The translations under genes and the position numbers were made by a program. DNA of 64,000 nucleotides. Source: Actinokineospora sp. NBRC 105648. GTDB taxonomy: Bacteria; Actinomycetota; Actinomycetes; Mycobacteriales; Pseudonocardiaceae. Every line of letters starts with the position of its first letter. The stretch's first letter is position 1. Under the pieces are notes generated by a model. It was not told where the DNA came from. It was given only the letters and a program-made list of their open reading frames with translations, and made no database searches. The stretch covers positions 1 to 64,000 of the forward strand of contig NZ_BSTR01000024.1 of assembly GCF_030269645.1 (NCBI RefSeq), written 5' to 3'. Shown piece by piece: positions 6,326 to 51,900 of the stretch.

Positions 6326-7284
6326 GCACCGGTCCCCGGATCGCCCTCGTCGGCGTCGGCTCGATGGGTTCCCTGCACGCCAGGGTCATCGCCCAGTCAC
6401 CGGACTGCGAGCTGGCCGTGCTGGTCGACCCGCGCGAGGAGATCGGCACCGCGGTCGCCGAGCGCTTCGGCACCCGCTGGCGGCCCGAGCTCGGCGATCT
6501 GTCCGATGTGGACGCCGTGGTGGTGGCCGCGGCCACCGAGGCGCACCACGAGCTCGCCCTCCAGGTGCTCGGCCAGGGCACGCCGCTGCTGGTCGAGAAG
6601 CCGGTGTGCGCCAACCTCGAGCAGACCACCGAGGTGCTCGAGCTGGCCGAGTCCGCCGGTGTGCCGATCATGTGCGGGCTGCTGGAGCGCTACAACCCGG
6701 CGGTGATGACCGCGCTGAGCCTGATCGACGCGCCGGTGCACGTCGCGGCCAAGCGGCACTCGCCGTACGCGTCCCGGATCAAGACCGGGGTCGCCTGGGA
6801 CCTGCTGGTGCACGACGTGGACATCGCGCTGCGCTGCTTCGGCGGCGCCGAGCCGGTGGCGGTCTCGGCCGAGGTGGGCCAGTTCCACCCGGAGTCGGTG
6901 CCCGGCGCCGAGGACGTCGTCGACGCGGTGCTGCGCTTCCCGACCGGCGTCGCGGCTGTGTCGGCCAGCCGGATCGGCCAGCGCAAGATCCGCACGCTCG
7001 CGGTCTACGAGCTCGACCGGCTCATCGAGGTCGACCTGATCAGCCGCACGGTGACCATCAACCGCAGCGTCGCCCAGGACGCGTTCACCCCGGACGGCCG
7101 CGGCTACCGGCAGCAGAGCATCATCGAGATCCCCGAGCTGCTCACCGCCCGCGAGCCGCTGGCCACCCAGCTCGACCGGTTCCTCGACCTGGTCGCCGGC
7201 CGGGTGGACGCCGACGAGGAGCGCCGCTCGATCCTGCCCGCGCACCGCACCGTGGCCGCCGTCATGGCGCGCACCCAGGGCTGA
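6322..7284 (+). CDS. Gfo/Idh/MocA family sugar-nucleotide dehydrogenase
   Basis: NAD(P)-dependent oxidoreductase of 320 residues. The N-terminal Rossmann motif is VGVGSMGSLHARV, and the family signature EKPV appears in LLVEKPVCANLEQT. GTG at 6322 is chosen because it overlaps the aminotransferase stop (GTGA) and places the Rossmann fold at the N-terminus; an in-frame upstream extension to 6046 would run inside the previous gene. Predicted to oxidise the 3-hydroxyl of UDP-GlcNAc or a relative, as GnnA or WbpB do, supplying the ketone that the upstream aminotransferase uses. Substrate is inferred. Confidence 0.88.
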   Translation: MSTGPRIALVGVGSMGSLHARVIAQSPDCELAVLVDPREEIGTAVAERFGTRWRPELGDLSDVDAVVVAAATEAHHELALQVLGQGTPLLVEKPVCANLEQTTEVLELAESAGVPIMCGLLERYNPAVMTALSLIDAPVHVAAKRHSPYASRIKTGVAWDLLVHDVDIALRCFGGAEPVAVSAEVGQFHPESVPGAEDVVDAVLRFPTGVAAVSASRIGQRKIRTLAVYELDRLIEVDLISRTVTINRSVAQDAFTPDGRGYRQQSIIEIPELLTAREPLATQLDRFLDLVAGRVDADEERRSILPAHRTVAAVMARTQG

Positions 7285-7285
7285 C

Positions 7286-7972
7286 ATGGGCAACCGCATC
7301 CACCCGACGGCGATCATCGGGCCGGGCGTCGAACTGGGCGAGGGCAACGTCATCGGCCCGTTCTCGGTGCTGGTCGGCCCGGCCCGGATCGGCGACGGCA
7401 ACTGGTTCGGCCCGCGGGTCGACATCGGCCAGCCCGCCGACTACCGGGGCGGACCGCACCCGGTCGGCTGGGACGGCGAGACCGAGGGCGGCGGGGTCGT
7501 CATCGGTGACCGCAACACCCTGCGCGAGTCGGTCTCGATCACCCAGGGCATGTTCGCCACCACCGTCCTGGGCGACGACTGCTACCTGATGGGCCGCTCC
7601 TGGATCGCGCACGACTGCGTGGTCGGCAACGCGGTGACGATCACCAGCGGGGTGCAGGTGGCCGGGCACTGCTCGGTCTGGGACGGGGCGAACCTGGGCC
7701 TGGGCACGGTCGTGCACCAGCGGACGAACATCGGCCCGTGCGCCATGGTGGGCATGGGCGCGGTGGTGACCCGCGAGGTCGGCGCGTTCGCCAAGGTCGT
7801 GGGCAACCCGGCCCGCTCGATCGGCTTCAACACCGTGGGCCTGTCCCGCCGCGGCTGCGACGACGAGACCGTGCTCGCCCTCCAGCCCTACCTGTCGGGG
7901 GAGTCCGAGGTGCTGCCCGCGGGCGTGCCCGCCGAGGTCGTGGACCTGCTCAAGGCCTGGTCAGAGCGCTGA
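7286..7972 (+). CDS. LpxA-like left-handed beta-helix acyltransferase
   Basis: A 228-residue hexapeptide-repeat transferase. It reads as a full LpxA homologue rather than a generic acetyltransferase: it starts with IHPTAIIGPGVELGEGNVIG, has SWIAHDCVVGN, where His109 corresponds to the catalytic His of LpxA, and ends with VVGNPARSIGFNTVGLSRRG, which matches the LpxA segment that closes the helix. LpxA adds a hydroxyacyl chain to UDP-GlcNAc in lipid A synthesis, but this organism should have no lipid A. With the upstream GnnB/GnnA-like pair it probably N-acylates or N-acetylates a UDP-3-aminosugar. It begins 1 bp after the previous stop and ends at a strong hairpin. Confidence 0.85.
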   Translation: MGNRIHPTAIIGPGVELGEGNVIGPFSVLVGPARIGDGNWFGPRVDIGQPADYRGGPHPVGWDGETEGGGVVIGDRNTLRESVSITQGMFATTVLGDDCYLMGRSWIAHDCVVGNAVTITSGVQVAGHCSVWDGANLGLGTVVHQRTNIGPCAMVGMGAVVTREVGAFAKVVGNPARSIGFNTVGLSRRGCDDETVLALQPYLSGESEVLPAGVPAEVVDLLKAWSER

Positions 7973-7974
7973 AA

Positions 7975-8019
7975 CGCCGTTCGCCCGGTCGCGTGAGCAC
8001 GCGAACCGGGCGAACGGCG
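7975..8019. terminator. Bidirectional hairpin terminator
   Basis: A 15-bp GC-rich stem (CGCCGTTCGCCCGGT with its complement) plus five further pairs after a one-base bulge, around a GAGC loop. It fills the 66-bp gap between the convergent LpxA-like and WecB-like genes and can serve both. Confidence 0.85.
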
Positions 8020-8038
8020 ACCAGGCGTCAGAGCAGGC

Positions 8039-9142
8039 TCAGCAGTGGCCGAGGCGCTGCAGCGTCTCGGCGATGATCTCGCTCGGCTGGTACTGGTCGA
8101 CCAGCGACGGGCCGCGGCGGTTCTGGTAGGTCGAGAGGAAGTCGGTCAGCTTGTCCTGGCGCATCTCGGTGAGCACCACGGTCTCGCCGATGTGCTGCGG
8201 CGACTCGGTCCGCTCGCGGTGGATCGCGCACGGCAGGCCGAGGTAGTAGCACTCCGCGCCCAGGCCGCCGGAGTCGGTGACCACGAACTTCGCCCGGGCC
8301 ACCACCGGCAGGAACCGCAGGTAGCGCAGCTTCGGCTGGATGATGAACCGCTTGTCGTCGAACAGCCCGCCCAGACCCAGCCGCTCGATGCGCTCGCGCT
8401 CGGGGCCACCGGCCATGTACAGGATCGGGATCTTCTCGCTGTGCGCCCGCAGCGCCTCCAGCGCCTCGCGGTACTTGTCCGCGCGCGACACCAGCTCGAA
8501 CCGGTGCAGCGTGGCCAGGCCGTACTCGTCGGGCAGGTTCAGATCGGCGGGCGGCGGCTCGCTGACCGCCATCCGCAGCGCGTCGATCGCGGTGTTCGCG
8601 CCGGTGTCGACGACCGCGCCGCGGGCGTGGCGCAGGTTGTGCGCCTCCCGCTCGCTCGGCGCGAAGTGCAGGTCGACCAGCTTCGCGGCGACCTTGCGGT
8701 TGATCTCCTCGGGCAGCGGGCTGAGCAGGCTGCCGCTGCGGCACCCGGCCTCGACGTGGGCGACCCGGGCGCCGAGGAAGCGCTTGCCGACGAACGCGCC
8801 GCCGGGGGTGGTGAAGGTGTCGCCGTGCACGATGACCAGCGGCGGCTTGCCGTCCTCGGCCAGGATCGCGCGCAGCTCCGCGCGCCTGCTCCAGGCCGTC
8901 CTGGCCACCGTCAGCGCCCAGCCCGGCACCTGCTTGGGCGTCTCGAGCCCGTGCGCCTTGGAGCGCGGCACGAACCACATGTCCGGCTCCGGCAGCCGCA
9001 GGTCGGACAGGACGTCGGCGACCTCGTCGACGTGCTGGGCGGTGAACCAGATCTTCGGCTTGGTGCCCCGGTTGACGAGCGCGTGGTACACCGGGGCGAT
9101 CTTGATCAGCTCAGCCGTGGTGCCGAGAATGAAGGAGATCAC
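8039..9142 (-). CDS. UDP-N-acetylglucosamine 2-epimerase family protein
   Basis: A GT-B fold epimerase of 367 residues related to WecB and WbpI, which invert C2 of a UDP-HexNAc to give the manno sugar. Visible family features are the N-terminal FILGTTAELIKIAPV, VIVHGDTFTTPGGA (cf. VHGDT in WecB), VEAGCRSGS, and TDSGGLGAECYYLGLPC near the C-terminus (cf. SDSGG..EE). Convergent with the aminotransferase-dehydrogenase-acyltransferase operon, so the four enzymes could act as one pathway: oxidise, aminate, acylate, epimerise, as in di-N-acetyl-mannuronic acid synthesis. No UDP-GlcNAc 6-dehydrogenase is seen here, so a uronic product is not shown. Confidence 0.85.
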   Translation of the reverse strand: MISFILGTTAELIKIAPVYHALVNRGTKPKIWFTAQHVDEVADVLSDLRLPEPDMWFVPRSKAHGLETPKQVPGWALTVARTAWSRRAELRAILAEDGKPPLVIVHGDTFTTPGGAFVGKRFLGARVAHVEAGCRSGSLLSPLPEEINRKVAAKLVDLHFAPSEREAHNLRHARGAVVDTGANTAIDALRMAVSEPPPADLNLPDEYGLATLHRFELVSRADKYREALEALRAHSEKIPILYMAGGPERERIERLGLGGLFDDKRFIIQPKLRYLRFLPVVARAKFVVTDSGGLGAECYYLGLPCAIHRERTESPQHIGETVVLTEMRQDKLTDFLSTYQNRRGPSLVDQYQPSEIIAETLQRLGHC

Positions 9143-15017: not shown

Positions 15018-16922
15018 ATGTCCCGTAGTGCGCCCAGTGCTGCTGTCAATGCCGACCCTGTCGTCGTGACCGAGGCGCCCGCACGCCTGGTCGCCCAGCG
15101 CGGTCTCTTCCGCGGGCCGGACCCGGTGTGCCCGGACGGGCTCTACACCACGGTGGTCTCCGGCGCGGCCGACCGCGAGCGCGCCCGGCTGACCGTGCGG
15201 CCCTACTCCGCGGTCAGCACCGACACCTACTTCGGCCGCTTCCCCGCCTCGTACTGGCAGCGCTGGACGGTCGTGGCCGAGGTCACCGTCGAGCTGGTCG
15301 TCACCGGCTCGGCCCGGCTGGCCCTGGTCGCCTCCGACTTCCGCGGCGAGTCCCGGCCGGAGAGCGTGCTCGACGTCGAGGGCGCCGAGGCCGAGACCGT
15401 CACGCTGACCGCCAAGCTGGACAAGTTCCTCGACGGCGGCTTCCTCTGGCTGGACATCACCACCGAGGGCAGCGCGCTGGCGGTCGAGCGGATGAGCTGG
15501 ACGGTCGAGGCCCCGGAGCGGGCCAGGCAGACCTCGGTGGTCATCTGCACCTTCAACCGCGCCGACGACTGCGTGCGCACCCTGGGCGCGCTCGCCGCCG
15601 ACGCCGACGCGCTCGCGGTGATCGACGCGGTCTACGTCGTCGACCAGGGCACCGACCTGGTGCAGTCCCGGCCGCAGTTCGGCGAGGTCGAGCTGGGCCT
15701 GGGCGACAGGCTCAACTACCTGCGCCAGCCCAACCTCGGCGGCGCGGGCGGCTTCGGCCGTGGCATGTACGAGGTCACCAAGTCCGGTGACGCGAACATC
15801 CTGCTGATGGACGACGACGTGCTCTGCGAGCCGGAGATCGCCGTGCGGCTCTCCGCGTTCGCCAACCGCAGCACCCGGCCCACCCTGGTCGGCGGCCAGA
15901 TGCTGCGCCTGCTGCACCCCACCCGGCTGGTCGCGGGCGCCGAGTACGCCGACTTCGAGCAGCTCGTGCCGGGCAAGGTCGTCTACAACGGCCTCGACGA
16001 CGTCGACCTGCTCGAGGAGGAGATCGACGAGGAGGGCGAGTCCACCGGCCGCCCGCCGCGCGGCGACCGGCGCGTCGACGCCGACTACAACGCCTGGTGG
16101 TCCTGCCTCATCCCGAACGAGGTCGTCCGGGAGCTGGGCCTGCCGATCCCGCTGTTCTTCCAGTGGGACGACGTCGAGTACGGCTACCGCGCCCGCGCGC
16201 GCGGCTACGCGACGGTGACGTTGCCCGGCGCGGGCCTGTGGCACGCCGACTTCGACTGGAAGGACGGCGACAAGTGGAACGAGTACTTCGCCGTCCGCAA
16301 CGCGATGATCATCTCCGCGCTGCACTCGCCGTTCCCGCCCAAGCAGATCGCCCGGGTGATCATGTCCCGGGTGGCCCGCGCGCTGCTGGGCATGCAGTAC
16401 GGCTTCGCCGCCACGATCATCAAGGCGGTCGAGGACTTCCTGGAGGGCCCGGCCATCCTGGCCGACGGCGGCCAGCAGGCGGCCGCGGCGATCCGCAAGC
16501 TGCGCGCCGAGTACCCGGACACCATCGCGCACCCGGTCTCCGCGCTGCCCGAGCTCGGCCTGGGCACCGTGCCGCTGGTGGCGGCCCAGCCGGAGCCCAA
16601 GCTGCCCCGCCTGGTGCTGCTCAAGCGGCTGGCCTACCTGACCCTGGGCAAGTCCGCGCACACCGTCGGCGCGGTCCCCGCGGTCGACTCCGCGTGGTGG
16701 CACATCTCCCAGTTCGAGAAGGCCGTGGTCACCGACGCCGCGCAGGACAGCGTCCGGCTGCGGGTCCGGGACAAGGCCATGACGATCGAGCTGGGCAAGC
16801 GGACCGCGGCGCTGGCCAAGCGGCTGCTCACCGAGTCGCCCCGGCTGCAGCAGGAGTACCGGGCCGCCATCCCGGAGCTCACCGGCGAGGACAACTGGGA
16901 ACGGCTGTACGGACTGCGGTAG
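15018..16922 (+). CDS. glfT2: Galactofuranosyltransferase GlfT2
   Basis: Polymerises the galactan of arabinogalactan with alternating beta-1,5 and beta-1,6 galactofuranose from UDP-Galf at the inner membrane face. The 634 residues match the M. tuberculosis enzyme in length and layout: an N-terminal beta-sandwich (1-165), a GT-A core with VVICTFNRADDC, the metal triad LLMDDDV, the catalytic FFQWDDVEYG and LWHADFDWKDGDKWNEYF, and a helical C-terminus. ATG at 15018 has an upstream GGAGG. It is followed by a second gene of the same family 86 bp downstream. The UDP-Galf donor is made by glf at 23.7 kb. Confidence 0.93.
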   Translation: MSRSAPSAAVNADPVVVTEAPARLVAQRGLFRGPDPVCPDGLYTTVVSGAADRERARLTVRPYSAVSTDTYFGRFPASYWQRWTVVAEVTVELVVTGSARLALVASDFRGESRPESVLDVEGAEAETVTLTAKLDKFLDGGFLWLDITTEGSALAVERMSWTVEAPERARQTSVVICTFNRADDCVRTLGALAADADALAVIDAVYVVDQGTDLVQSRPQFGEVELGLGDRLNYLRQPNLGGAGGFGRGMYEVTKSGDANILLMDDDVLCEPEIAVRLSAFANRSTRPTLVGGQMLRLLHPTRLVAGAEYADFEQLVPGKVVYNGLDDVDLLEEEIDEEGESTGRPPRGDRRVDADYNAWWSCLIPNEVVRELGLPIPLFFQWDDVEYGYRARARGYATVTLPGAGLWHADFDWKDGDKWNEYFAVRNAMIISALHSPFPPKQIARVIMSRVARALLGMQYGFAATIIKAVEDFLEGPAILADGGQQAAAAIRKLRAEYPDTIAHPVSALPELGLGTVPLVAAQPEPKLPRLVLLKRLAYLTLGKSAHTVGAVPAVDSAWWHISQFEKAVVTDAAQDSVRLRVRDKAMTIELGKRTAALAKRLLTESPRLQQEYRAAIPELTGEDNWERLYGLR

Positions 16923-17008: not shown

Positions 17009-18901
17009 GTGACCGAGCAGGACAGTACGAGGCGCAGCGGTGCCCAGGTGGTGCTCCAGCGGGTGATCCTGCCGCGCGACACCGACCCGGTGGATGTGCG
17101 GCCGCTCTACCTGGACGAGCCGGAGACCGCGCACTGCCACGTGTCCTCGCGCACCGCGGTGACCGTGCCCGCCTCCGCGCGGGTGTCGTTCGCGGCCTAC
17201 TTCAACGCCTTCCCGGCTTCCTACTGGAAGCGCTGGACCCGGCTCACCGAGGTCATCCTGCGGCTGGACCTGCGCGGTGGCGGCCGGGTCGACGTCTACC
17301 GGTCCAAGCCCAATGGTGACCAGGTTCACGTCGCGGGCCAGGCCGTGCGCACCGGCGCGGACGCCGAGACGGTCGAGTTCCGGGTCGACCTGGCCCCGTT
17401 CGAGGACGGCGGCTGGATCTGGTTCGACGTGTTCACCGACGAGCGCCCACTGGTGATCTCGGACGCGTTCTGGGCCACCGACCTGGACCTGCCCGCCAAG
17501 CGGCTCTCGATCGGCACCACCACGTTCAACCGGCCGGACGACTGCGTGGCCGCGCTGCTGGCGCTGGGCGAGGACCAGGCGGTGCTCGACGTGCTGGCCA
17601 AGGTCTACGTGGCCGACCAGGGCACGAAGAAGATCGTCGCGCACCCGCGCTTCGCCGAGGCCGCCGCGCTGCTCGGTGCCCGGCTAGAGGTGATCGACCA
17701 GGGCAACCTGGGCGGCTCCGGCGGGTTCAGCCGGGCGCTCTACGAGTCCGTCGAGCACTCCGACGTCGACCAGATCGTGCTGATGGACGACGACATCGCC
17801 CTGGAGCCGGACAGCATCCTGCGGGCCAGCGCGTTCGCCCGCGCGGCGACCAGCCCGCTGGTGGTGGGCAGCCAGATGCTCAACCTGCAGGCCCGCTCGC
17901 GGCTGCACAGCATGGGCGAGGTCGTCGACCTGGGCAGCTGCACCTGGGGCCCGGCGCCGGGCGCGGTCACCGACCACGACTTCGGCACCGACTCGCTGCG
18001 CAAGACCAGGGCCCTGCACCGGCGGATCGACGCGGGCTACAACGGCTGGTGGATGTGCCTGTTCCCGCGCGAGGTCGTCGAGGCCAACGGCCTGCCGCTG
18101 CCGCTGTTCATCAAGTGGGACGACGCCGAGTACTCGCTGCGCGCGCTGGAGAAGGGCTACCCCACGGTCACCCTGCCCGGCTCGGGCGTGTGGCACATGC
18201 CGTGGACCGACAAGAACGACCTGTCGGACTGGACGGTGTACTTCCACCTGCGCAACCGGCTGGTGATCGCCGCGCTGTACAGCCCGCACGACCAGCGCAA
18301 GACGCTGCTCAAGCAGGGCCTGCGCTCGACCATCCGGCGGCTGCTGTCGATGGAGTACTCGACGGTGGCCATCGAGCTCAAGGCGATCGAGGACTTCCTC
18401 GCCGGGCCGGACCGGTTCTTCGAGCTGCTGCCGACCGCGTTGCCGCAGGTGCAGCAGCTGCGCAAGCGCTACACCGACGCCCAGCTGCTCGCCTCGGCCA
18501 GTGAGGTGCCGCCGCCCACCCTGGACGCCGCGCATGCCGAGCGGATGCTGCGACCGCCCACGCACCCCGCCAGGATCGCCGCACAGGCGTCCAAGGCCGT
18601 TCTGCGCAACCTGCGCCCACCGGCGCCGACGGCGCAGGAGCGGCCGCAGGTGAACGTGCCCGCGGGCAGTGCGCTGTGGTTCCTGCTGGGCAACCTGGAC
18701 AGCGCCACCGTCTCGACCCCCGACGGCAGCGGTGTCGCCTTCCGGCGGCGCGACCCGGAGGTGTTCCGGGACCTGTCCAAGCGGGCGGCGGCCACCTACC
18801 GGCGGCTGGTGGCCGAGTGGCCGCAGGCCCAGGCGACCTGGAAGGCCGCCCTGCCGGAGCTGACCTCCACCGAGTCCTGGCGCAAGGTCTTCGAGAACTA
18901 G
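17009..18901 (+). CDS. Second GlfT2-like galactofuranosyltransferase
   Basis: A 630-residue paralogue of the preceding gene with the same architecture. It keeps every landmark of an active enzyme: TTFNRPDDC, LMDDDIALEP, IKWDDAEYS and GVWHMPWTDKNDLSDWTVYF, though the segment around the catalytic His differs (HMPW against HADF). GTG at 17009 has GGAGGAGCGGA upstream; in-frame coding further upstream would run inside glfT2. Mycobacteria as I know them carry only one GlfT2. The paralogue may set a different linkage, length or acceptor, or add galactofuranose to another glycan. Two hairpins follow the stop. Confidence 0.88.
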   Translation: MTEQDSTRRSGAQVVLQRVILPRDTDPVDVRPLYLDEPETAHCHVSSRTAVTVPASARVSFAAYFNAFPASYWKRWTRLTEVILRLDLRGGGRVDVYRSKPNGDQVHVAGQAVRTGADAETVEFRVDLAPFEDGGWIWFDVFTDERPLVISDAFWATDLDLPAKRLSIGTTTFNRPDDCVAALLALGEDQAVLDVLAKVYVADQGTKKIVAHPRFAEAAALLGARLEVIDQGNLGGSGGFSRALYESVEHSDVDQIVLMDDDIALEPDSILRASAFARAATSPLVVGSQMLNLQARSRLHSMGEVVDLGSCTWGPAPGAVTDHDFGTDSLRKTRALHRRIDAGYNGWWMCLFPREVVEANGLPLPLFIKWDDAEYSLRALEKGYPTVTLPGSGVWHMPWTDKNDLSDWTVYFHLRNRLVIAALYSPHDQRKTLLKQGLRSTIRRLLSMEYSTVAIELKAIEDFLAGPDRFFELLPTALPQVQQLRKRYTDAQLLASASEVPPPTLDAAHAERMLRPPTHPARIAAQASKAVLRNLRPPAPTAQERPQVNVPAGSALWFLLGNLDSATVSTPDGSGVAFRRRDPEVFRDLSKRAAATYRRLVAEWPQAQATWKAALPELTSTESWRKVFEN

Positions 18902-37423: not shown

Positions 37424-38323
37424 CTAGTGCCGGAAGAAGCGTTCCCGCCTGCCCTTGCGCACCAGCTTGAGCCACTCCAGGAAGGCCTTCGGGTCGCGCT
37501 TGGTGCCCAGGAAGTACAGGCCGAACCGGAACACCTCGAGCGCGCCGAGCTTGCGCATCCCCGGCTGGGAGAGCAGGTACCCGCGGTTGCGGTAGGTGTA
37601 GTACCGCTTGACCTCGTTCTCCGGGTCCTGCGCGTGCAGCTTGCCGCCCAGCATCGGCTTGAACTCGTCGGAGCCGTCCGGGTGCAGGTAGGCCGCGCGC
37701 AGGCAGGTGCCGAACGCCAGCCCCGAGCGCACCAGCCTGCGGTGGATCTCCACCTCGTCGCCGCGGAAGAACAGCCGGTAGTCCGGCACGCCGACCACGT
37801 CGAGGGTGTCGGCGCGGAACAGGGCGCCGTTGAAAAGCGAGGCGATGCCGGGCAGGAAGTCCTCGCCGAGCTGGTCGGCGCTGCGCTTCCAGGTGAGGCC
37901 GCGGCGCAGCGGGAAGGCGAGCTTCTCCGGCTGGTCGATGTTGGTGACCACCGGCGACACCTCGGCCAGCCCGCGCCGCTCGGCCACCTCCAGCAGGGTC
38001 GCCAGCACGTTCTCATCGGCCGGGCGGCCGTCGTCGTCGGCCAGCCACACCCACTCCGCGCCCAGCGCGAGCGCCTGCAGCATGCCCAGGGCGAACCCGC
38101 CCGCGCCGCCGAGGTTGCGGTGCGAGACGACGTAGGTCGAGGGCAGCGGGCAGGACTCGACGATGTCGCGGGCCGGGTCGTCCGGGCCGTTGTCCACCAC
38201 GATGAGGTGGTCCGGCGGCCGGGTCTGGGCGGCGATCACCTTCAGCGAGTCCGACAGCAGCCCCCGGCGGTGCCGGGTGACCACGACCGCGACGACCGCC
38301 CCGGCGGCCAGCGGGGTGCTCAC
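37424..38323 (-). CDS. glfT1: Galactofuranosyltransferase GlfT1
   Basis: GT2 enzyme that adds the first galactofuranose residues to the rhamnose-GlcNAc linker of arabinogalactan. 299 residues, close to Rv3782. Features: VVAVVVTRHRRGLL, LIVVDNGPDD, the metal site WLADDDGRP, LFFRGDEVEIHRRLV and YYTYRNRGYL. GTG at 38323 overlaps the stop of the ABC ATPase gene (GTGA); upstream in-frame codons belong to that gene. It is the last gene of wzm-wzt-glfT1, the same three functions as Rv3783-Rv3781-Rv3782. Confidence 0.92.
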   Translation of the reverse strand: MSTPLAAGAVVAVVVTRHRRGLLSDSLKVIAAQTRPPDHLIVVDNGPDDPARDIVESCPLPSTYVVSHRNLGGAGGFALGMLQALALGAEWVWLADDDGRPADENVLATLLEVAERRGLAEVSPVVTNIDQPEKLAFPLRRGLTWKRSADQLGEDFLPGIASLFNGALFRADTLDVVGVPDYRLFFRGDEVEIHRRLVRSGLAFGTCLRAAYLHPDGSDEFKPMLGGKLHAQDPENEVKRYYTYRNRGYLLSQPGMRKLGALEVFRFGLYFLGTKRDPKAFLEWLKLVRKGRRERFFRH

Positions 38324-39111
38324 CGGGTTTCCCCGATCCGCTCCAGGACGTCCTCGCTGAGGCTTTCGAACGGGTCGCGGCCCTTGTAGGCGGTCAGCAC
38401 CTCGCGCAGCGAGCCGTGCATCTTCACCCGGCCCTCGTCCATCCAGATCGCGGTGTTGCACAGCTCGAAGAGCAGGTCGTCGGAGTGCGAGGCGAAGACC
38501 AGCATGCCGGAGCGGCGCACCAGGTCGACCAGCCGGTCGCGGGCTTTGGCCATGAACGCCGCGTCGACCGCGCCGATGCCCTCGTCGAGCAGCAGGATCT
38601 CCGGGTCGATCGAGGTGACCACGCCCAGCGCCAGCCGCACCCGCATGCCGGTGGAGTAGGTGCGCAGTGGCAGGTTCAGGTAGTCGCCCAGCTCGGTGAA
38701 CTGGGAGATGTCCTCGACCCTGGCCTCCATCTGCTTGCGCGACATGCCCAGGAACAGGCCGCGGATCATGATGTTCTCCAGGCCGGAGATCTCCGGGTCC
38801 ATGCCGACCGCGAGGTCGAACACCGGCGCGATCTTGCCCTTGATCTCGGTGGTGCCGATGGTCGGCTCGTAGATCCCGCCGAGCAGCCGCAGCAGCGTGG
38901 ACTTGCCCGCGCCGTTGTGCCCGACCAGGGCGACCCGGTCACCCTCGTTGAGGGTGAGGTTGATGTCGTGCAGGGCCTCGATGATCGGGACCCGGGAGTC
39001 GGTGCCGATCTTGCCGCCGACCTTGCCGAGCACGGCTTTCTTCAGCGACCGCGTCTTCGCGTCGAAGATCGGGAAGTCGACGGAGGCGTTGCGCACCTCG
39101 ATGCTGACCAT
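38320..39111 (-). CDS. ABC transporter ATPase for galactan export (Wzt/Rv3781-like)
   Basis: A 263-residue ATPase. Walker A is GHNGAGKS, the signature is YSTGMRVRLALG, Walker B is ILLLDEGIGAVD, and the switch His lies in FASHSDD. The region before Walker A (SLKKAVLGKVGG) and the layout match the TagH/RfbE-type exporters of polysaccharides. It would power the flipping of lipid-linked galactan. ATG at 39111 leaves a 17-bp gap to the permease gene. Confidence 0.92.
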   Translation of the reverse strand: MVSIEVRNASVDFPIFDAKTRSLKKAVLGKVGGKIGTDSRVPIIEALHDINLTLNEGDRVALVGHNGAGKSTLLRLLGGIYEPTIGTTEIKGKIAPVFDLAVGMDPEISGLENIMIRGLFLGMSRKQMEARVEDISQFTELGDYLNLPLRTYSTGMRVRLALGVVTSIDPEILLLDEGIGAVDAAFMAKARDRLVDLVRRSGMLVFASHSDDLLFELCNTAIWMDEGRVKMHGSLREVLTAYKGRDPFESLSEDVLERIGETR

Positions 39112-39128: not shown

Positions 39129-40043
39129 TCAGACCCAGTAGGGAACACGTGCACGGTAGTTCCGCATGGCCACGAAGGCCAAGGCCCAGCCGATGACGGT
39201 GACGCCGCCCGCGACCGCCCAGTGGTGCCAGCTCTGCTCGCTGCCGATCAGCGGCGCGCGCAGGATCTGGATGAAGTGGTAGAGCGGGTTCGCCTCGATG
39301 AGCAGCAGCTTCCAGTCCCCGGAGCCCAGCTTCTTGGTCAGGATGTCGACCGGCCAGACGATCGGGGTCATGAAGAACAGCAGCTGGATCAGCGCGCCGA
39401 TGACCTGCGGGATGTCGCGGTAGCGGGTGCTGATGATGCCGAAGAGCAGCGTCACCCAGGCGCCGTTGAGCGCGATCAGCGCGAACGCCGGGATGGCGAA
39501 GACGATCGTCCAGCTCAGGCCGGGCTGCGGGACGCCGCCGCCCTGGGAGAGCGTGTAGCCCGGGGTGCTCAGCGGCCCGAAGAAGATGGCCAGCACGACC
39601 AGGTACACGAGCATGTTGTGCATCAGCATCAGCGTCTGGCGCCACACCGTGCGCAGCGCGTAGACCGTCAGCGGCGCGGGCAGGTGCTTGATCAGACCCT
39701 CGTTGGAGATGAAGGTGTCCGACCCCTCGGTGAGGCAGCCGAGGATGAAGTTCCAGACGATGAACCCGACCGTGAGGTACGGCAGGAAGGTACCGATCGG
39801 GCTGCCGAACAACTGTGAGTAGAGCAGGCCCAGGCCCAGCGCGGTGATCGCCATGCTCAGGGTGATCCACAGTGGACCGATCACCGAACGGCGGTACCGC
39901 TGCTTGATGTCCTGCCACCCGAGGTGGCCCCAGAGCTCGCGGTTGGCGATGCCCTCACGGATGTCCTGCGCCGCGCGCGCCCAACTGCGGCCCGAGTGGA
40001 CCACGGGCACAGGGGGGATCTCTATCGCGCTGATTGCTTGCAC
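39129..40043 (-). CDS. ABC transporter permease for galactan export (Wzm/Rv3783-like)
   Basis: Six membrane helices in about 304 residues, with the family region LWGHLGWQDIKQRYRRSVIGPLW (shown in part) just before the first helix and FFMTPIVWPVDIL later. It pairs with the ATPase 17 bp downstream. GTG at 40043 is the best start (VQAISAIEIPPVPV) although the ribosome site is weak; the in-frame extension to 40151 is Arg/Pro-rich and unlike the family. Divergent from the neuA-like operon, with 95 bp between the starts. Confidence 0.9.
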   Translation of the reverse strand: MQAISAIEIPPVPVVHSGRSWARAAQDIREGIANRELWGHLGWQDIKQRYRRSVIGPLWITLSMAITALGLGLLYSQLFGSPIGTFLPYLTVGFIVWNFILGCLTEGSDTFISNEGLIKHLPAPLTVYALRTVWRQTLMLMHNMLVYLVVLAIFFGPLSTPGYTLSQGGGVPQPGLSWTIVFAIPAFALIALNGAWVTLLFGIISTRYRDIPQVIGALIQLLFFMTPIVWPVDILTKKLGSGDWKLLLIEANPLYHFIQILRAPLIGSEQSWHHWAVAGGVTVIGWALAFVAMRNYRARVPYWV

Positions 40044-40138
40044 GATCGTTGAGCCTACCGGCGAGCGTTGTGGCGCCTGTGCTGGGCGCGCGTCTGCTGC
40101 CCGGTGCGGGCCGGTTCGCCGTGGCAGCATTGCACGCC

Positions 40139-41311
40139 GTGACAGTCTCACCGGCGGTAGTCGCCGTCATCCCGGCGCGCGGCGGCTCCAAGGGCGTGCC
40201 CGCCAAGAACCTGGCCACGGTCGGAGGGGTGCCACTGGTCGCCCGAGCCGTGCGCGCGCTGGTGACCGCCGATCGAGTGGATGTCGTCATCGTGAGCACG
40301 GACAGTGACGACATTGCCGCGGCCGCGGCCGCCGCCGGGGCGGTGGTCGTGCGCAGGCCCTCGGAGCTCTCCGGTGACACCGCTACGTCCGAGTCGGCCG
40401 TGCTGCACGCCCTCGACGAGACCGGCCTCGAGCCCGAGACGGTGGTGCTGGTGCAGTGCACCTCGCCGTTCATCGCCCCCGAGACCGTCGACGCGGTGGT
40501 CGCCAAGGTCCGCGACGACGACTACGACGTCGCCTTCACCGCGGTCCGGGTGCACGAGTTCCTCTGGCGGGTGGCCGGGGGCACGGCCGCCGGGGTCAAC
40601 CACGACCCGGCCTACCGCCCGCGCAGGCAGGACCGCGACCCGGAGTACCGCGAGACCGGCGCGGTCTACGCCATGCGCACCGCGGGCTTCCGGGCCGCCC
40701 GGCACCGGTTCTTCGGCCGGGTCGGCCTGGTCGAGGTGCCGCAGGCGGACGCCATCGAGATCGACACCGCCGCCGACCTGGACCTGGCCACCCGGCTGGC
40801 GGTGAGCCGGGCGGTGCGCGGGCCGGTGCCGGTGCGCGCCCTGGTCACCGACTTCGACGGCGTGCACACCGACGACCGGGCGATCCTGCTGCAGGACGGC
40901 ACCGAGGCGGTCGTGGTCAGCCGCTCGGACGGCGCCGGGGTGGCCGCGCTGCGCGCCGCCGGGGTGCCGGTGATGATCCTCTCGGTCGAGGTGAACCCGG
41001 TGGTCGCCGCCCGGGCGCGCAAGCTCGGCGTCGAGGTCGCGCACGGCGTGGCGGACAAGGCCGAACGGCTGCTGACCTGGCTCGACGAGCACGGGCTGGA
41101 CCCGGCCGAGGTGGCCTTCGTGGGCAACGACCTGCGCGACATCGGCTGCATGCGGCTGGTCGGCTGGCCGGTGGCGGTGGCCGACGCCCGGCCGGAAGTC
41201 CTGGCGGTGGCTAGGGTCGTGTTGGAAAGCAACGGCGGCGCCGGTGCGGTGCGCGAGATCGCCGACCTGATCCTGGCCGCCCCCCTCGCCCAAGGGAGTA
41301 CTCGGACATGA
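40139..41311 (+). CDS. CMP-nonulosonate cytidylyltransferase fused to a KdsC-like phosphatase
   Basis: A 390-residue bifunctional enzyme. Residues 1-225 are a NeuA-type cytidylyltransferase: AVIPARGGSKGVPAKNL (CTP loop), VSTDSDDIAA, LVQCTSPF and ETGAVYAM. Residues 233-390 are a HAD phosphatase close to KdsC: DFDGVHTDDR (nucleophile), SRSDGAGVAALRAAG, VGNDLRDIGCM and GGAGAVREIADLIL. The same fusion order exists in vertebrate CMP-sialic acid synthetases. Predicted to remove the 9-phosphate of a nonulosonic acid and activate it as the CMP sugar. Overlaps the next gene by 4 bp (ATGA). GTG 40139 gives the proper N-terminus. Confidence 0.88.
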   Translation: MTVSPAVVAVIPARGGSKGVPAKNLATVGGVPLVARAVRALVTADRVDVVIVSTDSDDIAAAAAAAGAVVVRRPSELSGDTATSESAVLHALDETGLEPETVVLVQCTSPFIAPETVDAVVAKVRDDDYDVAFTAVRVHEFLWRVAGGTAAGVNHDPAYRPRRQDRDPEYRETGAVYAMRTAGFRAARHRFFGRVGLVEVPQADAIEIDTAADLDLATRLAVSRAVRGPVPVRALVTDFDGVHTDDRAILLQDGTEAVVVSRSDGAGVAALRAAGVPVMILSVEVNPVVAARARKLGVEVAHGVADKAERLLTWLDEHGLDPAEVAFVGNDLRDIGCMRLVGWPVAVADARPEVLAVARVVLESNGGAGAVREIADLILAAPLAQGSTRT

Positions 41312-42186
41312 GCACAGCCGCGCCCCCGGTGGTCCTCGGTGACCGGGCGGTCGGCGCGGGTCAACCGGCGTACCTGGTCGCCGAGGCGGGTATCAACCAC
41401 AACGGCGACGTCGAGGTGGCCAAGCGGCTGGTCGACGTGGCCGCCGACGCCGGTGCCGACGCGGTCAAGTTCCAGAAGCGCACCCCGGAGATCGCCACCC
41501 CGCCGGACATGCGCGACACCCGGCGGGACACCCCGTGGGGCGAGATGAGCTACCTGGACTACCGGCACCGCGTCGAGTTCGGCGCCGAGGAGTACGCCGA
41601 GATCGACCGGCACGCCCGCGCGCGCGGCATCGCCTGGTTCGCCTCGCCGTGGGACGTGCCCAGCGTGGCGTTCCTGGAGCGCTTCGAGGTGCCGGTGCAC
41701 AAGGTGGCCTCGGCCTCGCTCACCGACATCCCGCTGCTGGAGGCGCTGCGCGACACCGGTCGCCCGGTGATCGCCTCCACCGGGATGTCCACGATGGCCG
41801 AGGTGGACCGCGCGGTCGAGGTGCTCGGCACCGAGCGGCTGGTGCTGCTGCACTCGACCTCGACCTACCCGTGCCCGCCGGAGGAGTCGAACCTGCTGGG
41901 CATCGCCACCCTGCGCGAGCGCTTCGGCGTCCCGGTCGGGTACTCCGGCCACGAGCGCGGGCTGCAGGTGTCCATCGCCGCGGTGGCGCTGGGCGCGTGC
42001 CTGGTGGAGCGGCACGTGACCCTGGACCGGGCGATGTGGGGTTCGGACCACGCGGCGTCGCTGGAGCCCGACGGGCTGCGCAGGCTGGTCCGCGACATCC
42101 GGATCGTGGAGACCGCGATGGGGGACGGCGTGAAGCGCGTCTTCCCGGGTGAAGAGGCTCCTCGAAAGCGCTTGCGCCGCGCCTGA
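41308..42186 (+). CDS. NeuB-family nonulosonate synthase
   Basis: Condenses phosphoenolpyruvate with a six-carbon sugar to form a nine-carbon acid (Neu5Ac, Kdn, Pse or Leg type). The TIM barrel has VAEAGINHNGD, DAVKFQKR, STGMSTMAEVD, LHSTSTYPCPPEESNL, GYSGHERG and the pair ERHVTLDR / GSDHAASLEP. At 292 residues it ends right after the barrel and lacks the C-terminal SAF (antifreeze-like) domain of many NeuB proteins, like shorter synthases. Since the partner carries a phosphatase, a 6-phosphorylated substrate is likely (inference). Confidence 0.88.
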   Translation: MSTAAPPVVLGDRAVGAGQPAYLVAEAGINHNGDVEVAKRLVDVAADAGADAVKFQKRTPEIATPPDMRDTRRDTPWGEMSYLDYRHRVEFGAEEYAEIDRHARARGIAWFASPWDVPSVAFLERFEVPVHKVASASLTDIPLLEALRDTGRPVIASTGMSTMAEVDRAVEVLGTERLVLLHSTSTYPCPPEESNLLGIATLRERFGVPVGYSGHERGLQVSIAAVALGACLVERHVTLDRAMWGSDHAASLEPDGLRRLVRDIRIVETAMGDGVKRVFPGEEAPRKRLRRA

Positions 42187-42278
42187 TCCGGTTCCCGTTC
42201 AGACTTGTGTGCCGCACGGCCAACTCGCGTTCCCCCGTTGGCCACCACGCACCGTCCCCCCGAGGCCTCCCCACACCT

Positions 42279-42953
42279 ATGCGTCCCGCCACCGCCTGCG
42301 CCGATCCCCCGGTGCGCCAGTCCCCGCTCGCGGCGCTGGTCGCCGCCTACGCCCGCCGCGACCCGCCGGCGACGGTGATGATCGTGGGCAACGCCCCGCT
42401 GGCCCCCGACCCGGCGCGCGCCGCCCTGGTCGACGCCGCCGACCTGGTCGTGCGGATGACCACCTTCGCGGTGGACGCGCCCGGCGGGCCGCCCGCGCTC
42501 GGCAGGCGCACCGACGTGGTGGTGCTGCACCGCGGCATCGTGGCGGGGCCGCACACCTTCGCCGACTACACCGCCCGGCTCTACCTGCTGGTCGAACCCG
42601 GGCGGCTGCACTGGGAACCGGAGGTCATCCCGGACTGGTGGCCCACCGACCTGGGGTTCGTGCCGGTGCCCAACGCCGAGTTCACGGTGCCGCTCAACGG
42701 GCTGCTCGGCTTCGACCCGCGGCAGCCGGTGTGGTCGACCACCGGGACGATGGCCGCCTACCTGTTCACCGAGCTGTTCCCGACCGCCACCGTGCGGATG
42801 ACCGGCATGTCGATCGTGGACCGGCCGGACCAGACCACCTTCGCCCACGCCTGGGGCGAGTCGGTGCGGGTCACCGCCGAGCACCGGCTGGCCGCCGAGG
42901 CCGCGCTGCTGCGCGGCTGGATGGAAACCGGAAGGATCGAGGTGCTGTCGTGA
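42279..42953 (+). CDS. GT29-like sialyltransferase
   Basis: A 224-residue protein with the pattern of CAZy family GT29, otherwise best known from eukaryotes. A sialylmotif-L-like block VMIVGNAPLAPD..ADLVVRMTTF is followed by DVVVLHRGI. An S-like block is WSTTGTMAAYLFTELFPTATVRMTGMS. A C-terminal His/Glu region (AHAWGESVRVTAEHRLAAE) then ends in GRIEVL. With NeuA- and NeuB-like genes directly upstream, it should transfer the CMP-activated acid to a glycan. There is no membrane anchor. ATG 42279 is preferred, with a weak GAGG; GTG 42207 is an alternative. It overlaps the next gene by 4 bp. Confidence 0.75.
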   Translation: MRPATACADPPVRQSPLAALVAAYARRDPPATVMIVGNAPLAPDPARAALVDAADLVVRMTTFAVDAPGGPPALGRRTDVVVLHRGIVAGPHTFADYTARLYLLVEPGRLHWEPEVIPDWWPTDLGFVPVPNAEFTVPLNGLLGFDPRQPVWSTTGTMAAYLFTELFPTATVRMTGMSIVDRPDQTTFAHAWGESVRVTAEHRLAAEAALLRGWMETGRIEVLS

Positions 42954-43477
42954 CCGAGGTGGTCGGCGTGAACCAGCGGGTGCTCGATGGCTTACGCGGC
43001 ACGGCCCGACTGGTGACCGCCCCGGTCTGGCGCAGGCTGCGCCCGCGCATCGAGGCCATCGCCCGGGACCAAGCGGCCCCGGCACTGGTCGCGGCCAACC
43101 GGCGGGCCGACCGGACCGACCGGGCGATCGACGAGGTGCGCGGCGAGCTGGTGGGTCGGATCGCCGAGCTCGAGGGCAGGCTCGGCGAGGTGGGCGCGGC
43201 GCTGGCCTGGCTCGACGGCGAGCACCGGCGGATCGCCCCGCAGCTCGCGGCCCTGGAGTCCCGGGTGGCCGAACTCGAACACGCGGCCGCGGCGGTCGAG
43301 CCTGACGCGGTGGTCGAGCCGGTCTCGGCGGCAGCGGTCCTTGAGCCGGACACCGCCTCGGTCGCGGCGCTGGTGGAGGAGATCAGGGTCGAGCACGCCC
43401 GGGTCCGTGCCCGCCTCGGCCTGGTGTCCCGCTACGAGGAGCGCATCACCCGCCTGGAACGCGCCCAGGACTCCTGA
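42950..43477 (+). CDS. Coiled-coil protein of unknown function
   Basis: A 175-residue, Ala/Glu/Arg-rich protein with long heptad stretches (about 45-115 and 140-172; for example ELVGRIAELEGRLGEVGAAL). No membrane segment or catalytic motif. GTG 42950 overlaps the GT29-like stop (GTGA) and the gene ends at a strong hairpin, so it belongs to the nonulosonic acid operon. Possible roles are a scaffold for the soluble transferase or a chain-length ruler; neither is shown. Confidence 0.75.
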   Translation: MTEVVGVNQRVLDGLRGTARLVTAPVWRRLRPRIEAIARDQAAPALVAANRRADRTDRAIDEVRGELVGRIAELEGRLGEVGAALAWLDGEHRRIAPQLAALESRVAELEHAAAAVEPDAVVEPVSAAAVLEPDTASVAALVEEIRVEHARVRARLGLVSRYEERITRLERAQDS

Positions 43478-43533: not shown

Positions 43534-44094
43534 CTAGAGGTACTGCCCGGTGCCGCCGCCCCGCAGGGCAGGGCCCTCGGGCGCCTCCGCCGCCGGGCCG
43601 ACGCCCGGCGGGAGGCCGCGGCGCATCTGCTCGAGTTGGACGCGGGCGGCCATCTGCTGGGCGAACAGGGCGGTCTGGATGCCGTGGAAGAGGCCTTCCA
43701 GCCAGCCGACCAGCTGGGCCTGGGCGATCCGCAGCTCGGCGTCGGAGGGGGTGTGCTCCTCGGTGAACGGCAGCGACAGCCGTTCCAGCTCCTCGCGGAG
43801 CTCGGGGGCCAAGCCGTCCTCCAGTTCGGCGATCGAGCGCTTGTGGATCTCGCGCAGCCGGTTGCGGCTGGCCTCGTCCAGCGGGGCCGCGCGGACCTCC
43901 TCGAGCAGCTGCTTGATCATGGTGCCGATCCGCATGACCTTGGCGGGCTGCTCGACCATGTCGCCGACTGACTCGCCGGGCGTCTGCGCGCCGTCGGGGA
44001 TCCGGGCGGTGCCGAGGGGGGAGCCGTCCGGACCCACCACCATGACGTGGTGTGCCTGGTCGGCGTCGTCGGGTCCGTTGGTGGGTTGAGTCAC
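43534..44094 (-). CDS. bpa: Bacterial proteasome activator Bpa (PafE)
   Basis: Ring-forming, ATP-independent activator that opens the 20S proteasome for unfolded proteins. The protein ends in the diagnostic GQYL motif after a Gly-rich tail. The body has the helical-bundle signature EQPAKVMRIGTMIKQLLEEVR and ELRIAQAQLVGWLEGLFHGIQ. 186 residues from GTG 44094, similar to Rv3780. It sits beside the galactan exporter genes as in M. tuberculosis, though separated by the nonulosonate operon. Implies that proteasome genes exist elsewhere in the genome. Confidence 0.93.
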   Translation of the reverse strand: MTQPTNGPDDADQAHHVMVVGPDGSPLGTARIPDGAQTPGESVGDMVEQPAKVMRIGTMIKQLLEEVRAAPLDEASRNRLREIHKRSIAELEDGLAPELREELERLSLPFTEEHTPSDAELRIAQAQLVGWLEGLFHGIQTALFAQQMAARVQLEQMRRGLPPGVGPAAEAPEGPALRGGGTGQYL

Positions 44095-50397: not shown

Positions 50398-51900
50398 TTA
50401 CGCGAGAACGGGTTCCTCGTCCTTGACCACGACCTCGGTCTGCTCGGTCCTCTCCTGCGGCCGGGGGAGCAGGCTGATCGAGGCGAACCCGGCGGCCAGC
50501 AGGGTCGCGAACAGCGCGATCACCTGGTGCTTCACGCCTTCGATGCCCTCGGCCAGCGCCGCGAGCGGGAACTGCCCAACCGCGGTGAGCAGCAGGAACA
50601 GCACCACCACACCGAGCTCGCGCGACCCGCGGCGCAGGGCGCGGATGCCCAGCCAGGCGATCAGCAGCCACAGCGGCAGCAGGGCGAACAGCCCGGCGGG
50701 GGCGATCAGCCCGGTGATCCCGGAGAGGACGGGGACGCGGTACTCCTTGGCCTTGGCGGGCAGCCCGGCGTCGGCGCCGAAGTTGCCCATGTTCGCCGGG
50801 CGCCCGGTCAGCAGGTCCTCGGCGGCCTGGTTGAGGATCTGCGCGGTGCGCACCGGGTGCGAGGCGTAGTAGCGCACGATGTTGCCGTTGCTGATCTTGT
50901 CCCGGTACTTCGGGTACTCGGGGTCGGTGTAGGCGGGCCTCGGGCTCCACCACTGCGTCCCGACGTACTGCGCGAACGACGCGGGCAACCCGAGATCAGC
51001 GAGGTCCTGGGCGGTGTCGTGCTTCCCGTCGACGATGCTGTCGAAGATCGCGTGGTAGGCGTTGGCCTCGCGGTACTCGGTGTTGGCGAAGTCCCCGGTG
51101 TTCTGCAGGGCCAACGTCCCCGCCCCGACGGCGACCACGACCACCGCGGCGGGCGCCCACTTGGCGACCCCACGCCCACGGTCGCCGACGGCCAGCACGA
51201 CCACCGCGATCACCAGCAGCGGCAACACCATCAACGTCTGCGACTTGGCGTTGACCCCGAGCACCCCACCGGCCACGACGACGGCGACCCCCAGCCAGCG
51301 CTGGAAGCCGGGGCGCCGCAGGAGGAGCAGCCCACCGGCCATCAGCAGCAGCCCGGCGAACGCGGCCCCCTCACTGATCACGGAGGTGAGGTACCCGAAG
51401 AAGGCGGAGTCCAGCACGACCAACCCGATCACGAACGCGGCCAGCGCCCGGTACCACCCCCGCACCGGAAGCGCCCAGACCACAACGGTCAACCCCACGG
51501 CCACGACGAGGATGCCGATGGCCCCCACGACCTTCAGGTTCAGCCCAGGCGGGTCCCCGAGCACCTGCCCCAACCACAACGCGACCCGGTCGACCCAGAA
51601 CTGCGACGACACGTACGAACTAGGACACGGCGCCGCGGGGGCGTAGAAGAACTGCACCACGCTCTCGGACACGCGGGCCCGGTCGTTCACCCCGAGCTTG
51701 CACAGCAGGCGCCAGCCGTCACCGTTGTCGGCGATCCCGACCGGCCGGGGCACCAACCACCGCACCACCAACACCGCCACCCACGCGACGAAGGTCCCCG
51801 CCCACTTCCACCGTTTCCACACCCGGCCCAGGGTAACTACCCACCCCCAGGTACCGCGTACGCCCCGCACACCCCACCGCGACCACCGAGCAAGCCCCAT
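50398..51900 (-). CDS. GT-C-like polytopic membrane protein
   Basis: About 500 residues with ten or more membrane segments. After the first helix comes IADNGDGWRLLCKLGV, an acidic extracytoplasmic loop like that of GT-C glycosyltransferases (cf. WsfD-type hexosyltransferases), and a large loop with GTQWWSPRPAYTDPEYPKYRDKISNG. The C-terminal tail is polar. Donor and acceptor are unknown. ATG 51900 is preferred (CAGG six bases upstream); the in-frame extension to 51981 is Arg-rich and unlikely. Monocistronic and convergent with the M28 pair. Confidence 0.72.
   Translation of the reverse strand: MGLARWSRWGVRGVRGTWGWVVTLGRVWKRWKWAGTFVAWVAVLVVRWLVPRPVGIADNGDGWRLLCKLGVNDRARVSESVVQFFYAPAAPCPSSYVSSQFWVDRVALWLGQVLGDPPGLNLKVVGAIGILVVAVGLTVVVWALPVRGWYRALAAFVIGLVVLDSAFFGYLTSVISEGAAFAGLLLMAGGLLLLRRPGFQRWLGVAVVVAGGVLGVNAKSQTLMVLPLLVIAVVVLAVGDRGRGVAKWAPAAVVVVAVGAGTLALQNTGDFANTEYREANAYHAIFDSIVDGKHDTAQDLADLGLPASFAQYVGTQWWSPRPAYTDPEYPKYRDKISNGNIVRYYASHPVRTAQILNQAAEDLLTGRPANMGNFGADAGLPAKAKEYRVPVLSGITGLIAPAGLFALLPLWLLIAWLGIRALRRGSRELGVVVLFLLLTAVGQFPLAALAEGIEGVKHQVIALFATLLAAGFASISLLPRPQERTEQTEVVVKDEEPVLA

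Follow-up and report, generated by a model that had tools for sequence, protein, structure and literature searches.

Sialyltransferases of family GT29 have been reported from bacteria, namely from Proteobacteria, in a paper whose main text holds no word beginning with 'actinobacteri-' (PMC5811610). Streptomyces walls are reported to carry a teichulosonic acid of galactose and Kdn (PMC11481543), and the S. coelicolor genes named for it are SCO4873-SCO4882 (PMC13011467). Among Gram-negative bacteria, some Wzm-Wzt exporters operate together with methyl or Kdo terminators that are equipped with coiled-coil rulers, and the exporters of such terminated O-antigens require a carbohydrate-binding module on Wzt (PMC11231755). 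For galactan, contacts between GlfT2 and the exporter have been proposed to govern chain length and are still being explored (PMC10951656). Here we examine a four-gene operon at positions 40139-43477 of a 64,000-nucleotide stretch of the soil actinomycete Actinokineospora sp. NBRC 105648 (contig NZ_BSTR01000024.1, positions 1 to 64,000; hereafter the window). It encodes a CMP-nonulosonate synthetase fused to a phosphatase (NeuA-HAD), a nonulosonate synthase (NeuB), a compact protein related to GT29 sialyltransferases (GT29L, 224 aa; 42279..42953, forward strand) and a helical partner (CC), and it lies beside genes that we take for a galactan exporter. The explanation that we prefer, by a modest degree, is that GT29L is a CMP-nonulosonate transferase that decorates, and perhaps caps, a wall glycan, with galactan as the leading candidate.

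To place GT29L we used 18 members from 61 genomes (its own included) and 76 loci from a species-wide contig collection. An alignment of 56 sequences joined the window's protein to 55 of these loci; the other 21 were dropped by hand, among them decayed or shortened copies, near-duplicates and some others. Searched singly, 35 of the 56 members matched the GT29 family of Pfam, PF00777, at E ≤ 1 (best E 2.2e-6), compared with only two for the next of the five Pfam families listed at that threshold. One protein (L110) reached 25.4 bits, over the curated PF00777 cut-off of 23 bits, the only one to do so among the 18 GT29L proteins with single scores. An 18-sequence profile run against the PDB yielded five matches at E ≤ 10, led by a dockerin (E 0.055); the other four were GT29. 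The 56-sequence profile gave 12 matches, of which eight, including the first six, were GT29 (best E 0.0033); the others were the dockerin and three monellins. The dockerin, which was also the lone phmmer match against the PDB (E 0.19), fell to rank 7 with the larger profile, and we rejected this kinship as spurious.

Searches across 396 genomes of the phylum led to the same family from the other side. Besides its own genome, the GT29L profile hit a single place, in genome G373 (E 1.5e-5). PF00777 picked out this place too (E 2.2e-8), together with one in G303, and gave no match in the window's own genome (8.43 Mb) when this was searched directly. In G373 the gene concerned shares 4 bp with a NeuA-HAD gene, and NeuB lies ~3 kb away. 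Within the genus of G303, taken to be Streptomyces, 20 of 150 genomes matched PF00777 at E ≤ 0.001, 13 of them over the cut-off. When GT29L was aligned profile to profile (hhalign) with the domains from 13 proteins that PF00777 had picked out, eight of which exceed its cut-off, the match covered 165 columns with P 5.8e-13, whereas the control alignment to CC gave P 0.78. One actinobacterial locus (L144:9160-11487) encodes a 775-residue protein joining a GT29-type to a GT4-type domain, with a 4-bp overlap with a NeuA-HAD gene.

The AlphaFold model of GT29L (predicted local distance difference test, pLDDT, 90.5; predicted template modelling score, pTM, 0.90) gave the same answer. Ranked by Z, the first 14 entries of the fold comparison were all GT29 (15.5-11.7), followed by the GT42 enzyme Cst-I as the next-best fold (10.2) and by HPPK (9.9); in Foldseek, rows 1-30 were all GT29 chains, including all 19 at E ≤ 1e-3. 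These chains stand for four enzymes, ST6GalNAc2, ST3Gal1, ST8SiaIII and ST6Gal1, which we take to be GT29 members. Residues invariant in 56 of 56 sequences (Asn27, Asp41, Asp44, Arg48, Thr144-Gly145, and His191 and Glu196 of an H-x4-E) align to PF00777-type domains, and they correspond to what we take to be the sialylmotif residues, namely the CMP-binding Asn, Asp and Arg, the TG of motif S and the H-x4-E of motif VS. Thus GT29L has both the GT29 fold and the L, S and VS residues. As alternative homes, families GT42, GT52, GT80 and GT38, under the Pfam names that we presume to stand for them, were rejected; none was among the five Pfam families matched at E ≤ 1 by the 56 members.

Several observations weigh against this kinship. 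On its own, the window's GT29L had no Pfam or NCBIfam match at E ≤ 1, PF00777 included, and 17 of the 18 proteins scored singly were either under the PF00777 cut-off (L112 at 22.5 bits) or unmatched. The 19 best Foldseek rows had only moderate query template modelling scores (0.39-0.59; root-mean-square deviation 5.5-9.2), and sialylmotif III, with its invariant His179, reads HAxG rather than the H-Y-Y-E type. Nevertheless, the member matches, the profile-profile P value, the fold ranking and the invariant motif residues together give good support, from sequence and model, to GT29L as a divergent GT29-type subfamily with a deviating motif III. The earlier note on this DNA had called the protein GT29-like, and that kinship is borne out by way of its relatives; the profile search it proposed gives no match for the 224-residue protein alone and a PF00777 match at E ≤ 1 for 35 of the 56 members, with nothing for GT42, GT52 or GT80. 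Its description of GT29 as mostly eukaryotic needs qualifying, since bacterial members from Proteobacteria have been in print since 2018 (PMC5811610). We consider it very likely, judging from the motifs and the predicted fold, that GT29L is a CMP-nonulosonate transferase.

We then asked what accompanies GT29L in the 76 loci, with genes called by a simple caller of our own, so that start sites and some small genes are uncertain. In 73 of the 76, CC is the next gene after GT29L, and NeuB lies inside the fetched stretch in 65. Among the 61 genomes, all 18 with GT29L have NeuB, versus 4 of the 43 without it, these genomes being related rather than independent. The donor cassette varies: NeuA-HAD plus NeuB in 13 loci, NeuB-NeuC-NeuA in 16, a pseudaminate (Pse)-type, PseB-containing set in 34, and none of these in 13. 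In the NeuC class, the one NeuC scanned (L053) matched TIGR03568 with 355 bits, over the cut-off; in the Pse class, L059 had PseB and PseI over their cut-offs and PseC below, and the PseH and PseG scanned in L057 were also below. One locus (L126) was placed in the fused class on weak scores (NeuA 169, HAD 83, NeuB 190 bits). The 13 loci without a cassette include three that stop at a contig end (L066, L114, L136), one whose genome, taken as G032, has NeuB on another contig (L070), four from Geodermatophilus where NeuA, joined in one case by NeuC, appears towards the distal edge of the fetched stretch, and two from Sciscionella without donor genes nearby, with NeuB elsewhere in the one genome checked. 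The remaining three are decayed Saccharomonospora copies.

On a quick GT29L tree of 70 rows (the window added, 62 rows labelled by cassette and 8 unlabelled; L090, L100, L120, L121, L137, L138 and L139 of the 76 omitted), which carries a long-branch warning, cassette type needs at least 7 changes, where the least possible is 2 and shuffled labels average 25.9. The label therefore tracks clades yet has switched several times. The most economical reading of these sequences is that GT29L takes the CMP-nonulosonate made by its neighbours, whatever its kind.

The three Saccharomonospora genomes (two iraqiensis, one halophila) lack any match to PF03102, the NeuB family, which 9 of 14 control genomes match. 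Their GT29L genes (L137, L138, L139) keep open frames, and the proteins have lost Asn27, the HA of motif III with His179, and His191 of the H-x4-E. This decay fits a protein that lost its function once its donor was gone, probably as one event in one genus. It also bears on whether GT29L might keep a sialyltransferase fold while no longer being a transferase, serving instead as a regulatory or binding protein. The short length (224 aa) and unusual motif III would suit such a protein, but all 56 sequences keep the motif residues unchanged, and the three genomes where NeuB was lost have lost them; we find this reading extremely improbable.

All four genes that the earlier note had described were found, with the overlaps and gap it reported. 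NeuA-HAD (40139..41311, forward strand; GTG start, with an in-frame alternative GTG at 40079) and NeuB (292 aa; 41308..42186, forward strand) overlap by 4 bp, as do GT29L and CC. GT29L may start at 42207 (GTG), 42279 (ATG) or 42312 (GTG), which leaves 20, 92 or 125 bp between NeuB and GT29L. GC content at third codon positions is 0.92-0.97 across the four genes. Homologues of the set are present in many genera, so the operon is far beyond chance.

The N-terminal half of NeuA-HAD matches PF02348 (E 3.5e-25, over the cut-off), and its C-terminus continues in the same frame as a KdsC-type HAD phosphatase (TIGR01670, E 1e-25, 90.5 bits, below the cut-off of 106.95). NeuB matches PF03102 (E 5.6e-84). 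Its match to TIGR03569 ends at position 277 of 329, and the Pfam and NCBIfam scan found no SAF family in it at E ≤ 1, and we read it as a synthase lacking the SAF part. Such a short NeuB (272-306 aa) accompanies the fused HAD domain in 13 of 13 loci of the fused class, while NeuB measures 325-378 aa in the NeuC class and 339-371 aa in the Pse class (n = 50 loci), with no overlap in length. Because the fused phosphatase and the short synthase coincide in every case, a 9-phosphate intermediate in the window's route is plausible, as the earlier note had proposed from the fusion; its mention of Kdn fared less well. NeuA-HAD scored 83.3 bits with the KDN-9-P phosphatase model NF058599, against a cut-off of 180, and the nearest solved structure to the phosphatase, 3mmz, is called only a putative HAD hydrolase. 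By its family matches the phosphatase is classed only as a KdsC-type HAD, not as a Kdn enzyme, and the lack of a SAF domain and the phosphatase fusion no more than hint at hexose-6-phosphate use by NeuB.

A hint to the sugar comes from relatives of the donor enzymes. NeuA-HAD is 53% and 58% identical to the fused proteins encoded close to the PF00777 matches in G303 and G373, and NeuB is 64% (over a part) and 66% identical to the corresponding synthases. Since the window's donor enzymes resemble those near the G303 protein, and Streptomyces is reported to have a galactose-Kdn polymer, a Kdn-like sugar made through a 9-phosphate would be a reasonable guess by analogy.

CC (175 aa; 42950..43477, forward strand) is modelled by AlphaFold as a 113-residue helix (3-115) and a 42-residue helix (133-174), with a mean pLDDT of 89.7 and a pTM of 0.45; low pTM with high local confidence is as expected for a predicted rod without a fixed fold. 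Its heptad-like periodicity was mildly significant (P 0.013-0.016; controls 0.36 and 0.18). Tested alone, the last 38 residues showed no significant periodicity (P 0.17), a point against the explanation that we prefer. No family exceeded its cut-off in Pfam and NCBIfam scans, and kinship to ABC C-terminal or SMC-like proteins, suggested by sub-threshold matches only, was set aside. CC may serve as a tether, ruler or assembly factor; its being specifically a ruler or terminator seems doubtful to us.

On the reverse strand, diverging from the operon, lie wzm (39129..40010), the membrane subunit of an ABC exporter taken for the galactan exporter, its ATPase wzt (38320..39111; 263 aa) and a GT2-type gene (37424..38323; PF00535) taken for the initiating galactofuranosyltransferase, which we call glfT1, presumably correctly, from gene order. 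On the other flank the convergent bpa (43534..44094, reverse strand) encodes a bacterial proteasome activator (PF10759, E 6.9e-80). The operon thus fills a slot between wzm and bpa. Several other members of the same family have the two as direct neighbours with nothing between, including the same-genus L165, in agreement with the earlier view of the operon as an insert in the galactan locus. The adjacency of wzm and bpa that was claimed for Mycobacterium tuberculosis did not hold up in that form: judged by G043, taken for mycobacterium-like, the type order is bpa-wzt-glfT1-wzm (L180), in which bpa touches wzt.

Association with the exporter recurs among relatives. Fifty-eight of the 76 loci hold wzm or wzt, and GT29L lies ≤5 kb from wzm in 13 of 18 relatives; in two loci where it is away from wzm (L125 and L129; one Blastococcus, one Modestobacter), it lies ~5-6 kb from an Emb-type arabinosyltransferase. 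To see what else the slot can hold we read 20 wzm regions (14 of the 20 family genomes without GT29L, 2 from a family taken for mycobacterial, 4 with GT29L elsewhere). Some contain a methyltransferase whose N-terminus is charged and coil-like (PF13578 in L166 and L182; L181 and L183 by similarity), others a polysaccharide pyruvyltransferase (PF04230; L167, L172, L173, L174), and others genes without a seen link (L168, L177, L179). At E ≤ 1e-40, 11 of the 61 genomes have the methyltransferase, at 12 places in all, and 8 of these places precede wzm by 65-106 bp on the same strand. The pyruvyltransferase is present in 9 genomes, at 10 places, of which 4 are no more than 2 kb from wzm (distances for both compared by eye). 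No description of the coil-like methyltransferase upstream of wzm (L166:7502-8371, L181-L183) is known to us, although hardly any literature search was aimed at it. In one relative, a BrxC/BrxD-like ATPase follows wzm in the slot (L177:8144-9388).

Exported glycans could plausibly bear any of the three groups, methyl, pyruvyl or ulosonate, at their ends or sides. Because of this, and because Gram-negative terminators work with Wzm-Wzt exporters, a broader model suggests itself by analogy: an exchangeable capping module at the galactan exporter of arabinogalactan-bearing actinomycetes, in which GT29 plus rod (adding a Kdn-like, Neu5Ac/Leg-like or pseudaminate residue), coiled-coil methyltransferase or pyruvyltransferase would cap lipid-linked galactan and set its length. 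It would be the Gram-positive equivalent of terminating O-antigen chains, with an animal-type sialyltransferase as its tool. We offer this model tentatively and think it rather unlikely in full.

A number of results count against a link to galactan or against such a module. Eighteen of the 76 loci have no wzm or wzt in the fetched stretch, several of these being cut by contig ends. At E ≤ 1e-20, a Wzm match was absent from 4 of 11 GT29L genomes checked, two Microbacteriaceae and two small Nocardioidaceae metagenome-assembled genomes (1.8-1.9 Mb). The window's Wzt shows no carbohydrate-binding module; at E ≤ 1e-5 it matched just ABC_tran, its only family over cut-off, and a sub-cut-off AAA family. 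Heptad-like periodicity was significant in 1 of 3 N-termini of the slot methyltransferase. G029 holds GT29L and this methyltransferase side by side, and G010, G014 and G032 have the methyltransferase at wzm with GT29L on another contig or 656 kb off. We therefore discarded strictly alternative slot modules, in view of G029 and of the three genomes with GT29L elsewhere, and galactan as a universal acceptor, which the four genomes without a Wzm match rule out. That the acceptor is galactan or arabinogalactan, as opposed to another molecule, seems to us about as likely as not.

These exceptions bring in the possibility that GT29L serves a separate wall or capsule polymer, teichulosonic-acid-like or an exopolysaccharide, and that the wzm site is a lineage-specific insertion hot spot. 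GT29L-CC with its cassette lies away from wzm and wzt in 15 of 63 cassette-assigned loci, GT29L occurs in genomes without a Wzm match, and its donor enzymes resemble those of G303 and G373 (64-66% for NeuB, 53-58% for NeuA-HAD), the former taken as Streptomyces, whose walls are reported to carry galactose-Kdn teichulosonic acid (PMC11481543). Unrelated genes, such as the BrxC/D-like ATPase or lipoprotein-like genes, also follow wzm in some genomes. On the other hand, association with galactan or arabinan genes recurs in both Pseudonocardiaceae and Geodermatophilaceae with differing local arrangements, and the other gene that recurs in the slot, the methyltransferase, precedes wzm so closely on its strand at 8 of its 12 places (65-106 bp) that it points to glycan-linked cargo. 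A separate polymer is a real possibility, although we lean against it. A protein or lipid target, such as a surface protein or glycolipid, would accord with the pseudaminate pathways that serve flagellin glycosylation in other bacteria (PMC13317340, PMC3068675). No flagellar gene was recognised by eye in nine loci (flagellar families were not searched for), however, and what recurs around GT29L are genes for galactan, arabinan and sugar pathways; we judge such a target very improbable.

Returning to GT29L as a decorator of a wall glycan, the family assignments would give the following pathway. NeuB would condense a six-carbon sugar phosphate with phosphoenolpyruvate to a nonulosonic acid 9-phosphate, the HAD half of NeuA-HAD would dephosphorylate it, and the NeuA half would convert the product to the CMP-nonulosonate. 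GT29L, taken as a soluble cytosolic enzyme, would then move the sugar onto the glycan. As acceptor we envisage the lipid-linked galactan of GlfT1 and GlfT2 before its export by Wzm-Wzt, so that the nonulosonic acid would become a chain end group, with the CC rod perhaps holding GT29L near the membrane complex or setting the capping distance. In relatives the donor cassette is exchanged for NeuB-NeuC-NeuA or a pseudaminate-type set, and GT29L-CC is retained. The GT29 kinship and fold, the gene pairing, the donor swapping and the slot contents are what we observed; catalysis, cytosolic location, exact sugar, acceptor and the role of CC we infer from them.

These results place a compact GT29-type sialyltransferase subfamily in cultured actinomycetes. 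They suggest that one transferase was given at least three nonulosonic acids during evolution, which would make its donor specificity, and any chemoenzymatic use, directly testable. In titles and the starts of abstracts, with subscription journals mostly uncovered, we recognised no GT29 from actinobacteria and no nonulosonic acid on arabinogalactan. If the acceptor is galactan, this would be a modification of arabinogalactan for which we found no report, and it would offer a handle on how galactan length is set.

Other glycan genes were seen in the window and in related loci. A second, divergent GlfT2-like protein (15066-16922) lies beside the regular GlfT2 (17009-18901), and a similar paralogue stands just before GT29L in a Geodermatophilus locus (L119:7824-9686). 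At 5228-9142 are a DegT aminotransferase, a UDP-GlcNAc 3-dehydrogenase-like Gfo/Idh protein, a hexapeptide acyltransferase and a WecB-like epimerase, all below their NCBIfam cut-offs, a set that we presume to be of the kind in UDP-diacetamido-mannuronate-type pathways. A WsfD-family glycan hexose transferase is encoded at 50398-51822 (334 bits; cut-off 80).

Compared with described GT29 sialyltransferases, animal (ST3Gal, ST6Gal, ST6GalNAc, ST8Sia) and proteobacterial (PMC5811610), GT29L has in common the fold, the L-, S- and VS-type residues and a supply of CMP-nonulosonate. It differs in being shorter (213-224 aa versus 275-374 in PDB chains), in having no cysteine in its conserved 213 residues, in its HAxG motif III, and in being actinobacterial, with a helical partner gene and a donor pathway exchanged among relatives. 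To the PF00777 proteins of G303 and G373 it is related by profile, and these too have the NeuA-HAD fusion and SAF-less NeuB within ~10 kb; they are larger, with weak TPR-like matches before the domain in G303 and a GT4-type fusion in G373, and, unlike the window, their 20-kb loci have no match to Wzm, Wzt or GlfT1. The galactose-Kdn teichulosonic pathway of Streptomyces (SCO4873-SCO4882) probably has a donor cassette of the same type, judging through G303 (S. coelicolor itself was not searched), and its product is a separate polymer, unlike the galactan proposed for the window. From the O-antigen terminators WbdD, WbbB and the GT137 protein ORF7 of Klebsiella O4, the window's operon differs in transferase fold, in having the coil as a separate protein and in a neighbouring Wzt without a carbohydrate-binding module match; common to both is the arrangement of a CMP-ulosonate transferase, or in some cases a methyltransferase, and a long coil, a predicted one in the window, beside Wzm-Wzt.

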